A stretch of 40,897 bases of DNA from Desulfurococcales archaeon. Lineage in GTDB: Archaea; Thermoproteota; Thermoprotei_A; Sulfolobales; Desulfurococcaceae. The DNA lies in the NCBI GenBank assembly GCA_015520735.1, contig WAPN01000017.1, positions 1 to 40,897 on the forward strand, given 5' to 3'. Positions 7,275-10,261 of this stretch are shown piece by piece. A program made the translations under genes and the position numbers. The notes beneath the pieces are model-generated. The model was not told where the DNA came from, did not search any database, and saw nothing but the letters and a program-made list of their open reading frames with translations. Numbering within the stretch: position 1 is the stretch's first letter; every line of letters starts with the position of its first letter.

Positions 7275-7327
7275 CTATTTAATCAGGCTTGGATAACTAG
7301 ATAAACCCCAAGACCCATAGCACACGA

Positions 7328-7410
7328 ATGATGATGAGGGTTAAAAGCGTGGCAGCCCTGCAGTCCTTTGTAGGCGGGGCAATGCCAGGTGCCAGGCTTC
7401 TGATTTGTCC
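7328..7410 (+). ncRNA. Candidate structured RNA upstream of cdvA
   Basis: The 200-base gap between 7274 and cdvA contains a GC-rich hairpin in otherwise AT-rich intergenic DNA: GGCA-GCCCTGC at 7351-7361 pairs with GCGGGGC at 7374-7380 and TGCC at 7383-7386, leaving an AA bulge and a 12-base loop. A perfect box C consensus ATGATGA (7331-7337) lies before it and a box D CTGA (7400-7403) after it; a T-run (7415-7420) follows. This could be a C/D-like guide RNA with an enlarged middle, another small RNA, or a regulatory hairpin. At 76 bases from C to D it is longer than most archaeal C/D RNAs, and no D'/C' boxes are clear. Confidence 0.3.
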
Positions 7411-7476: not shown

Positions 7477-8166
7477 GTGTCAGATCTGAAAGTCGAGAAT
7501 ATAGAAAAATACCTTGGCAAACCAGTAAACGACCCTTACGGTAGAAGACTAGGTCACATAGTCAGCTTCTATAGCGATGCTGATGGAAATGTGACGCACC
7601 TAGAGGTAAGCCTTGGAGAGGTAGAGTTTAAGCAGATCCCTATAGACAGATTCATTTTCAAAGATGGCGAGGCGATCCTAGTACCTCAGTGGGAGTACGA
7701 AGCCAAAGTTGTTGAAGGGAGACTCGAGAGGCTGAGGAAGAGGAAGATCGCATTAGAAGACCTATACGCTAAGAAGGAGATACCCCGTCACGCCTACGAT
7801 ACCTTCAAGAAGAAACTAGAAGAGTCTCTAATGAAGGCTAAGGATGAGGCCAAGAAGGTAAAGGATCTACTCAAGAAGAGACAATATGAGCTCGAAGACA
7901 TTATCCTAGAGCTAGAGAAAGCAATGACTAGCCTCAAGGTCAGTTACATGGCTGGGGAGATACCGGATAAGGCATACAAGACAGCAGCAGATCAAGTTAG
8001 GAAGCATCTAGACCATGCACAGCTAGAGAAGGAAAGCGTAAAGAAGCACCTTGAGAAGATCGAGGCATTAGAGAAGGAGCCAATAGATATTGGGCCAGTC
8101 AACAAGACCGAGGAGCAGGTTCCATCATCGGAGCAGCCTCTACCAGTAGTAGTGCTGGAAGGATAA
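7477..8166 (+). CDS. cdvA: CdvA, crenarchaeal cell-division scaffold protein
   Basis: CdvA binds membrane and DNA at mid-cell and recruits the ESCRT-III protein CdvB. Residues 1-75 look like the N-terminal PRC-barrel-like domain (YLGKPVNDPYGRRLGHIVSFYSD). About 75-195 are a long charged coiled coil. The C-terminal tail after a linker ends EQPLPVVVLEG, the place and style of the ESCRT-III-binding (E3B) peptide known in the family. Length 229 fits. GTG start at 7477 with GGAGGGG seven bases upstream. The downstream cdvB and cdvC confirm the assignment. A possible TATA (TTTTTTAAG near 7415-7423) lies about 60 bases upstream of the start. Confidence 0.93.
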   Translation: MSDLKVENIEKYLGKPVNDPYGRRLGHIVSFYSDADGNVTHLEVSLGEVEFKQIPIDRFIFKDGEAILVPQWEYEAKVVEGRLERLRKRKIALEDLYAKKEIPRHAYDTFKKKLEESLMKAKDEAKKVKDLLKKRQYELEDIILELEKAMTSLKVSYMAGEIPDKAYKTAADQVRKHLDHAQLEKESVKKHLEKIEALEKEPIDIGPVNKTEEQVPSSEQPLPVVVLEG

Positions 8167-8176
8167 GGTATTTTCC

Positions 8177-8217
8177 AGGTAGTACCTTGTCAGGTGTTTA
8201 AAAACATGTTTTTGAAC
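8177..8217. promoter_or_regulatory. Two palindromes at the cdvB promoter
   Basis: In the 92-base gap between cdvA and cdvB lie AGGTA-G-TACCT (8177-8187, perfect 5-base arms) and then a 22-base palindrome (8196-8217) with 11-base arms and no spacer, which has one mismatched pair (position 4 against its partner). Its left half contains TTTAAAAAC, which reads as a TATA box at a suitable distance (about 55-60 bases) from the cdvB start. A protein bound here would compete with TBP. This is operator-like, but no binding factor can be named from the sequence. Confidence 0.45.
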
Positions 8218-8258
8218 CACAAGATAAACGGGTTCAATAACACGAGGGGTGCAATATA

Positions 8259-9062
8259 GTGAGCCTAGCAATACGGAATGTCAGGGGTTTATTCTCGCGG
8301 ATATTTGGATTCAAGAGCAGTAGTGATCCCATAAGGAAAACGATAGCGGAGGCTATCGCACAGATAGATAGAATGCTCCTCAACATAGAGGGCACGATCA
8401 ATAATCTTAAGGAGATGCAGGAAGAACATAGTAGAAAAGCCGAAATGTTTGCAAGACAGGGCAAGAATGAGTATGAGAAAATATTCCTAGACGAGCTCAC
8501 TCACATAAGTAAGCTTCTCTCAATATTCGATCTTGTAAGAATAGATCTCGTTCGTGTGAAAGTCAGGCTTAAGACTCTGACCCATGTAGAGGAGCCTCTA
8601 AAGCACTTACCCGAAATAATCCAGGAGCTCGAGATGATAAAGCCAAAGATCGAGAAAATCGCTCCCGATCTAGCGATGGCTGTGATGGAAATCGAGAGAA
8701 AGGTATCCAGTATAATGACAAGCACCAATCTCTCAAATTCCCCATTACCCGAAATACAAAGTTCATCCTCAATTAACACAGCGATAAATAAAGCGGAGCC
8801 TTTAAAGAAAACGCTGCCTCCCTTACCACCGGAGGGAGAGCCAATAGGATCAGCCCAACTAGTCATGGCTCCGAAGAAGACTTCCATGAATGTGAGAGCC
8901 TCAATAGATCTCATCAAGACATGGCTTATCGAAGAGATAAAGTCAACCGGTGGTGTATTAGATATATCTTCATTCTGTAAGAAGTATGGTGTGACAAGAA
9001 GTCAGATCTTCATGGCTCTGCAGATGCTTGAAAGAGAAGGTAAAATAAAGCTTTCTAGGTGA
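8259..9062 (+). CDS. cdvB: CdvB, ESCRT-III-like division protein
   Basis: Polymerises at the division neck and constricts the membrane. Residues 1-150 form the helical ESCRT-III core, starting with an amphipathic basic helix (RNVRGLFSRIFGFK). A linker of low complexity follows, then the proline motif TLPPLPPEGEP (185-195), which matches the MIM2 peptide that binds the MIT domain of CdvC. Residues 213-267 form the winged helix known to bind the CdvA tail. GTG start at 8259 has a strong GAGGGGTG ribosome site eight bases upstream. This full-length form with winged helix is CdvB proper rather than the shorter CdvB1/B2/B3 paralogues. Its end overlaps the frame of the next gene's upstream extension. 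Confidence 0.95.
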   Translation: MSLAIRNVRGLFSRIFGFKSSSDPIRKTIAEAIAQIDRMLLNIEGTINNLKEMQEEHSRKAEMFARQGKNEYEKIFLDELTHISKLLSIFDLVRIDLVRVKVRLKTLTHVEEPLKHLPEIIQELEMIKPKIEKIAPDLAMAVMEIERKVSSIMTSTNLSNSPLPEIQSSSSINTAINKAEPLKKTLPPLPPEGEPIGSAQLVMAPKKTSMNVRASIDLIKTWLIEEIKSTGGVLDISSFCKKYGVTRSQIFMALQMLEREGKIKLSR

Positions 9063-9118: not shown

Positions 9119-10261
9119 ATGCCTTCACAGTATCTAATAGAAAAAGGAACTGAATATGCCCATTTGGCTGTGGAAGCAGATAGGAAGGGTGATTATGAAA
9201 AAGCGATCAAATACTATAAGGCAGCTATCGAAATGTTTGTAAGATTCCTTAGACTATATCCTGACAGCTCCATGGCAGACTTCTACGCAGCCCTTGTTAA
9301 AAAATACAGGTTAAGGATCAAGAAACTAGAGCAACATCTACAAAAAGTTAGTGTGGGGGGAAGGCCAAGGGAGAAAGAAAATGTTGACGAGATAGAGGTA
9401 ATCTACCCGAATCAGAGGAACCCGATTAGGTTCAATGATGTTGTGGATCTTGAGCATGTGAAGCTAGCTCTGAAACGTGCAGTGATAATACCCACTCTTC
9501 ATCCTGAATTATTTCCTCTAGGTTGGCCCAAGGGAATACTTTTGTTCGGTCCGCCGGGCTGTGGAAAGACGCTTATTGCATATGCTCTCGCAAATGAGAT
9601 CAATGCTGCGCTGATAGATGTTAGCCCGGCGACTATAATGTCGAAATGGCTTGGTGAGGCTGAGAAGAATGTGAAGAGGGTGTTTGATAGAGCCCGCCAG
9701 ATAGCGTCAGAGGGAACGCCTGTATTGATTTTTATTGATGAGGTTGATGGTCTTCTGCAGCAGTATAGTGATGAGGTTGGTGGTGAAAAGCGTGTGCGTA
9801 ATCAGTTTCTAATGGAGATGGATGGGCTTAAGGATAAACAAAATAATCGCGTACCAGTATTCGTTATCGGGACAACCAACAAGCCATGGCAACTCGATAT
9901 AGGATTTATTAGGAGATTCGCGAAAAGGATCTATGTTCCACCACCTAATAAAGATGTAAGGAAACAGTTGTTCCAGCACTACATAACTAAACTTGCAGCA
10001 GTATATGAGGTAGCTGATATTGATCTCGATAAACTAGCTGAGTTAACAGAAGGATATAGTAGCTCCGATATTGAGACTATAGTTAAAGAGGTACAGTTCA
10101 ATGTAGCCCAGGAACACTTCGAGAAAAACAATGGAATAGGGAAGCCACGCCCCATTACAGTTGATGACTTCATAAAGGTGATCAAAGCCCACAAGCCCAG
10201 CATAAGTCCGGAGATGCTCAAAGCATACGAGTTATGGAACGATAAGCATGGGACAACATGA
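9119..10261 (+). CDS. cdvC: CdvC, Vps4-like AAA ATPase
   Basis: Remodels and recycles CdvB polymers with ATP during cytokinesis. From ATG 9119 the protein is 380 residues, near the family norm. Residues 1-75 are a MIT domain (LAVEADRKGDYEKAIKYYKAAIEMF) that would bind the CdvB proline motif. The AAA module has Walker A GPPGCGKT (144-151), pore-loop region around SKWLGEAEKNV (175-185), Walker B LIFIDEVD (203-210), sensor GTTNKPW (251-257) and arginine-finger region FIRRFAKR. An in-frame GTG at 9059 would add 20 residues unlike the family, so ATG 9119, preceded by GGGGTAGATGAT, is preferred. It lies 56 bases after cdvB, probably on the same transcript. Confidence 0.95.
   Translation: MPSQYLIEKGTEYAHLAVEADRKGDYEKAIKYYKAAIEMFVRFLRLYPDSSMADFYAALVKKYRLRIKKLEQHLQKVSVGGRPREKENVDEIEVIYPNQRNPIRFNDVVDLEHVKLALKRAVIIPTLHPELFPLGWPKGILLFGPPGCGKTLIAYALANEINAALIDVSPATIMSKWLGEAEKNVKRVFDRARQIASEGTPVLIFIDEVDGLLQQYSDEVGGEKRVRNQFLMEMDGLKDKQNNRVPVFVIGTTNKPWQLDIGFIRRFAKRIYVPPPNKDVRKQLFQHYITKLAAVYEVADIDLDKLAELTEGYSSSDIETIVKEVQFNVAQEHFEKNNGIGKPRPITVDDFIKVIKAHKPSISPEMLKAYELWNDKHGTT

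Follow-up and report, generated by a model that had tools for sequence, protein, structure and literature searches.

Paired pseudo-palindromic boxes at a fixed distance from the cdvB TATA box suggest a regulated ESCRT-III promoter in a Desulfurococcales archaeon

The gap between the cell division genes cdvA and cdvB of a Desulfurococcales archaeon holds two palindromes, which raises the question of whether the ESCRT-III gene cdvB has a control site of its own and, if so, which of the two marks it. Our study addressed this question in a window of 40,897 nucleotides (the whole stretch of DNA analysed, one contig of a 1.53-Mb source genome that is 99.8 % complete) and in related genomes, where families and genera carry arbitrary rank labels (f1, g1 and so on). 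The gap, read directly from the cdvA stop codon to the cdvB GTG start at 8259, is 92 bp long, and cdvB orthologues were detected in 39 of 40 family genomes (E ≤0.001). The features of the locus are as follows.

7477..8166, + strand: cdvA, with a GTG start and a TAA stop at 8164-8166; Pfam CdvA 2.2e-42; NCBIfam cell_div_CdvA 1e-53, under the curated cut-off of that model
8167..8175, + strand: left box GGTATTTTC, family consensus GGTATTAYC from the cross-genus alignment
8176..8177, no strand: 2-bp spacer of the paired box, unconserved in the alignment; 8177 is A or G within the genus
8178..8186, + strand: right box GGTAGTACC, consensus RRTANYACY, the core of the small palindrome at 8177-8187
8187..8196, no strand: box-to-TATA interval of 10 bp, which holds any BRE; its length is fixed in 13 genera and its sequence varies between genera
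8197..8204, + strand: cdvB TATA box TTTAAAAA; cdvB promoters across the family keep TTTAAA or a close variant
8209..8213, + strand: T5 tract, which forms the core of the 22-bp palindrome at 8196-8217 together with the TATA-box A5
8244..8251, + strand: SD-like GAGGGGTG, assigned from the sequence and its 7-nt distance to the cdvB GTG
8259..9062, + strand: cdvB (ESCRT-III), with a GTG start; NCBIfam cell_div_CdvB 4.2e-18, under the model cut-off
9119..10261, + strand: cdvC (Vps4-like AAA ATPase); NCBIfam cell_div_CdvC 5.3e-142; Pfam MIT, AAA and Vps4_C; its mechanical open reading frame listing starts at 9059

Both palindromes were confirmed by direct reading. The small one, AGGTA-G-TACCT (AGGTAGTACCT), lies at 8177-8187, and the 22-bp palindrome GTTTAAAAACATGTTTTTGAAC lies at 8196-8217 with a single mismatched pair (8199/8214). 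The placement of a cdvB TATA box inside the long palindrome in the initial annotation was also sound, as TTTAAAAA (8197-8204), the SD-like GAGGGGTG (8244-8251) and the start codon (8259) follow one another. Four 22-bp palindromes with at most one mismatched pair were counted in the window, against a mean of 0.53 and a maximum of 3 in dinucleotide shuffles. Such a palindrome fell inside the 92-bp gap in 0.13 % of dinucleotide shuffles, an odd palindrome with 5-base arms did so in 12 %, and both kinds together in 0.03 %. Symmetry alone gave only modest evidence, and for this reason the relatives were examined; it is their conservation that provides strong evidence.

Comparison with relatives revealed a paired box of 20 bp, GGTATTTTC-CA-GGTAGTACC (8167-8186), whose right half is the small palindrome. 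The paired box is made up of two 9-bp pseudo-palindromic sites of the GTA-N-TAC type that lie 11 bp, or one helical turn, apart. It starts directly 3' of the cdvA stop codon, and 10 bp separate its end from the TATA box of cdvB, giving the order GGTATTTTC-CA-GGTAGTACC-TTGTCAGGTG-TTTAAAAA in the window. In the family layout at cdvB, GGTATTAYC and RRTANYACY are separated by two free bases, and TTTAAA follows after exactly 10 bp. The boxes of the window have diverged from it, the left one reading GGTATTTTC and the right one having G for A or T at its centre (GTAGTAC), whereas the canonical CGTATTACC is retained at the genome's own aCcr1 gene.

Among five genomes of the same genus (that of the window and four others, the comparison genomes being metagenome genomes), only 4 of the 51 columns in 8167-8217 vary, and two of these fall inside the box, at the free centre base and in the 2-bp spacer; cdvA and cdvB have 146 four-fold degenerate sites, of which 92 vary in these genomes. 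Loss of the palindrome from close relatives, which the initial annotation had named as evidence against it, was not seen: it is kept there, and its core is found in seven other genera. The cross-genus comparison was based upon oriented cdvB upstream regions from 40 family genomes. Of the 15 genera, 14 carry the paired box or a clear variant of it at cdvB, g15 being the one with no clear box. Between the right-hand slot, or its clear variant, and the TATA box there are 10 bp in 13 genera, a count that takes in the TTTTAAAC TATA form of g8 and the CTTAAAAG of some g14 genomes. In g9 the paired box stands 12 bp before the TATA box; the left box matches better than the right in g12 and g13. The CdvB proteins of the box-bearing genera are ~30–50 % identical to that of the window.

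Two further tests quantified this signal. A 20-bp matrix trained without the genus of the window ranked 8167-8186 first on both strands of the 40.9 kb, at 22.8 bits, with the next independent site in the window at 14.5. Within the 45 bp that precede the TATA box, the best matches to GTAWTAC summed to 12 mismatches over the 15 genera, compared to a mean of 31.8 and a minimum of 21 in 5,000 shuffle trials; the match is exact at cdvB of g2, g7, g8, g9, g13 and g14, and one mismatch (GTAGTAC) separates the window from it.

Genera g2 and g14, in which cdvB does not adjoin cdvA, still carry the box at the cdvB promoter. The box is therefore an element of cdvB, and an element of the cdvA 3' end or tail was ruled out by the same persistence. 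Within its own genome, RTANYACY-N10-TTTAAA occurs once, at cdvB. The family as a whole has 81 occurrences, of which 20 are at cdvB, compared to 14 of the reversed control, which indicates that the box-TATA geometry is enriched at other genes too. The shorter RGTAWTACC shows no overall over-representation genome-wide (84 strand matches against 102 for reversed-pattern controls), and 21 of its 65 distinct sites (32 %) were intergenic by rough gene calls, one of the 21 being a 16S rRNA stretch, against 16 % (same loci) and 7 % (window).

Several of these other sites cluster at individual genes. Four RGTAWTACC boxes occupy 180 bp 5' of an operon (L205, G000:C37:16218-16395) that by Pfam encodes Gar1 and a TFIIB-type transcription factor (gar1-TFB). 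Box clusters are also found at a gene for a 96-aa zinc-ribbon protein with no Pfam match (L206, G000:C37:30622-30697; L345, L348, L349 and L352); this gene displays the cdvB-like geometry of box, 10 bp and TATA box in same-genus genomes and in g5, and is a recurrent target in g1 and g5. Finally, GGTAATACC lies directly 5' of the anaerobic ribonucleotide reductase gene nrdD (L190, G000:C5:220986), which seems to contain an intein.

The sequence of the box points to ribbon–helix–helix (RHH) regulators, of which the genome encodes two candidates. The first belongs to the family of aCcr1, reported as an RHH repressor of cdvA in Sulfolobaceae (PMC12796447; PMC7617429). In our study the aCcr1-box was defined from its occurrence in Sulfolobaceae cdvA leaders and from other papers. 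The GTAWTAC(C) core of that box, which the cdvB box resembles, occurs in Sulfolobaceae cdvA leaders as GAGTATTACCATG and 3' of the cdvA TATA box in g13 and g16 (the Sulfolobaceae arrangement). Leaders of aCcr1-family genes carry it as well, in g1, g6, g9 and families f4, f6 and f8; as in the aCcr1 system, the aCcr1-family gene has a box in its own leader here. The aCcr1-family protein of the source genome (G000:C17:42201-42380) scores 61.2 bits against NF053762 (cut-off 60). Genera g2, g12, g13 and g14 keep the box and yield only weak aCcr1-family matches, none of them near the cut-off. Several genera and family f7 have a second conserved element, ATAGTTTCGG...CCTCCC (or ATACTTTC...CCCTC), 5' of the aCcr1 gene (L152-L169).

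The arrangement at cdvB nevertheless differs from that of the aCcr1-box, as here the sites are paired, 11 bp apart, upstream of the TATA box and at a fixed spacing. In every box-bearing genus the cdvB box stands upstream of the TATA box and never in the repressor position between TATA box and start codon. The cdvA promoter of the window, unlike that of Sulfolobaceae, has no box. The statement in the initial annotation that known regulators of this locus act mainly at cdvA holds for Sulfolobaceae, where aCcr1 is reported to repress cdvA (PMC12796447); a site at the ESCRT-III promoter would be a control point different from Sulfolobaceae cdvA.

The second candidate is a CdrS-like RHH protein (G000:C15:24527), whose orthologues are strongly conserved in most genera of the family (80–117 bits over about 57 aa). 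Its best NCBIfam match is CdrS (7e-9), although its score of 35.6 is far under the haloarchaeal equivalog cut-off of 100. According to PMC8406309, ftsZ1 of Haloferax has an upstream symmetric motif at −50 to which CdrS binds, apparently as an activator, and CdrS-type activator sites are symmetric, standing upstream of the promoter at −41 to −110 relative to the transcription start. The cdvB box, symmetric and upstream of the TATA box, would lie at ~−50 from a start predicted from that TATA box. That the CdrS-like protein, rather than aCcr1, binds the paired box is a choice within our preferred explanation to which we give less than an even chance. Its orthologues are also present in g2, g12, g13 and g14, which lack an aCcr1 match near the cut-off; CdrS acts from about −50 (PMC8406309); and both RHH types have the strand R-[VL]-[IV]-T-[FV]-K in common, so that similar target sites are plausible. 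Set against this are the low CdrS score and the tie of GTA-N-TAC to aCcr1 genes through their own leaders. Since aCcr1 matches near the cut-off are missing from four box-bearing genera, and the leader of the CdrS-like gene has no box in nearly all cases, neither candidate fits perfectly. If the CdrS-like protein does bind, CdrS-type control would span FtsZ- and ESCRT-III-based division.

Besides aCcr1, three known systems bear a likeness to this element. The likeness to CdrS consists of a small division-linked RHH protein, near-universal as a gene in this family, and a symmetric upstream site, here predicted near −50; however, the sites are likened by symmetry and position and not by motif letters, the crenarchaeal protein is well under the equivalog cut-off, and haloarchaeal CdrS controls ftsZ1 and the cdrS-ftsZ2 operon, whereas the target here is ESCRT-III. 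Arc/MetJ-type tandem RHH operators are composed of short sites about one helical turn apart on which two dimers bind; the cdvB boxes are likewise adjoining short sites about one helical turn apart, although the targets of Arc and MetJ are bacterial and metabolic or phage. SegB, an RHH chromosome-segregation protein of Sulfolobales, also pairs an RHH protein with a cell-cycle-linked palindromic site, but its motif TCTAGA-S-TCTAGA (PMC12284271) was not found in the cdvA–cdvB gap and the box is unlike it.

Within the long palindrome, the combination TTTAAAAA-N(1-4)-TTTTT occurs once in its own 1.53-Mb genome, at cdvB, and 16 family genomes from 8 genera have it at cdvB; the A5-T5 pair is thus a conserved, cdvB-specific feature, and its single occurrence rules out the palindrome as a general feature of promoters. 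The spacer between A5 and T5 is 2, 3 or 4 bp depending on the genus, so that the spacing of the half-sites is not constant, the outer arms are not kept between genera, and loci in which cdvB does not follow cdvA lack the T5 arm. An antisense promoter arising from the palindrome was considered and set aside: the reverse strand reads TTCAAAAAC in the window, and by eye most genera have no TATA-like run there.

The simplest reading of the 22-bp palindrome is a TATA box followed by a U-tract, which may end the cdvA transcript. U-tract termination is established in archaea. That T5 is a terminator of cdvA within the cdvB promoter, the palindrome arising where A5 (the TATA box) meets T5, has in our view close to an even chance of being correct; it covers the long palindrome only and is compatible with the paired box as regulatory element. 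A run of at least five T between the cdvA stop and the cdvB start was present in 12 of the 13 genera with adjacent genes (g9 excepted; g8 judged by eye), and 10 of 11 loci with relocated cdvB (g2 and g14) have no T-run near the promoter, the sole exception being one g14 genome with a run near the gene start. Because only two genera are relocated, this contrast is weak, being a correlation over few independent cases (p about 0.03 with relatedness ignored). In addition, the distance from T5 to the TATA box is nearly fixed in 8 genera, a spacing that a terminator alone does not need.

The initial annotation had instead taken the long palindrome for a repressor operator, on which a dimer covering the TATA box would block TBP. 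This now appears improbable. The overlap with the TATA box is real, 8 genera keep the symmetric A5-Nn-T5 core, found in this genome at cdvB alone, and only 2 of the 22 positions vary within the genus. However, a spacer that varies between 2 and 4 bp is a poor fit to one rigid dimer operator, the outer arms change between genera, the T5 arm is lost where cdvB is not behind cdvA, and the A5 arm is required as a TATA box regardless. Of the operator proposed for the ESCRT-III promoter, what survives is a conserved element specific to cdvB, with the small palindrome, as right box, appearing to be a stronger regulatory candidate than the long one. An ordinary promoter with chance symmetry and no regulator, in favour of which stands the odd palindrome seen in 12 % of gap shuffles, is hardly credible given the fixed spacing, the uniqueness in the genome and above all the conservation across genera that contradicts it.

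Outside the paired box and the long palindrome, an Rfam RNA search of the cdvA–cdvB gap returned weak, sub-threshold chance matches only. Just 5' of cdvA (7325-7404, + strand) lies a likely box C/D-type small RNA, laid out as ATGATGA-GGGTTAAAAGCGTGG, a hairpin and then ATGCCAGGTGCCAGGCTTCTGA, and kept in 11 family loci; the self-complementarity of the hairpin is kept although its sequence changes between genera. This candidate had no Rfam match at the gathering score in a search of the window. The C box and GGTTAAAAGC are likewise kept 5' of cdvA in Sulfolobaceae. In family f3 (L095-L106) cdvA and cdvB are divergent, compared to the tandem order elsewhere, and one g2 genome (L144, G002) carries an inverted repeat, ATTACACCTGG...CCAGGTGTAAT, 3' of the cdvA TATA box, which is possibly a different operator at cdvA.

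Taken together, we consider it fairly probable that the cdvA–cdvB gap is a compact, regulated promoter of cdvB, and probably of cdvC too, with the paired box at 8167-8186 as an RHH-bound element and the TATA box and U-tract downstream. The divergence of the boxes in the window, the imperfect fit of both RHH candidates and the lack of a clear box in g15 weigh against this reading. Most likely, two dimers of a small RHH regulator would sit side by side on one face of the DNA, ~50 bp before the expected transcription start, and would tune the loading of TBP, TFB and RNA polymerase. With its place upstream of the TATA box, the paired box looks like an activator-type site, and its placement at ~−50, as predicted from the TATA box and like that of Haloferax CdrS, favours an RHH regulator acting from upstream; an activator or a switch of cell-cycle timing would be more likely than a simple blocker. 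Downstream, T5 would be a U-tract close to the promoter at which the cdvA transcript may end, in which case cdvA and cdvB could be timed separately. A bolder version, which we regard as rather unlikely, has the near-universal CdrS-like RHH protein binding the paired box and activating ESCRT-III, with site and control having moved to cdvA and to repression by aCcr1 in Sulfolobaceae; if true, one type of regulator would be common to two unrelated archaeal division machines.

In summary, the class of site and the class of regulator are already known, and no paired, upstream form with fixed spacing at an ESCRT-III promoter was found in a limited check of the literature. What is known of the timing of archaeal division-gene expression comes largely from Sulfolobaceae and haloarchaea, and the fixed-geometry ESCRT-III site offers a concrete candidate control point, with two RHH candidates in the same genome. 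Our findings suggest an evolutionary shift within the crenarchaea between upstream, activator-like control at cdvB and downstream, repressor-like control at cdvA, and division control may act on ESCRT-III directly, not only through its partner CdvA.
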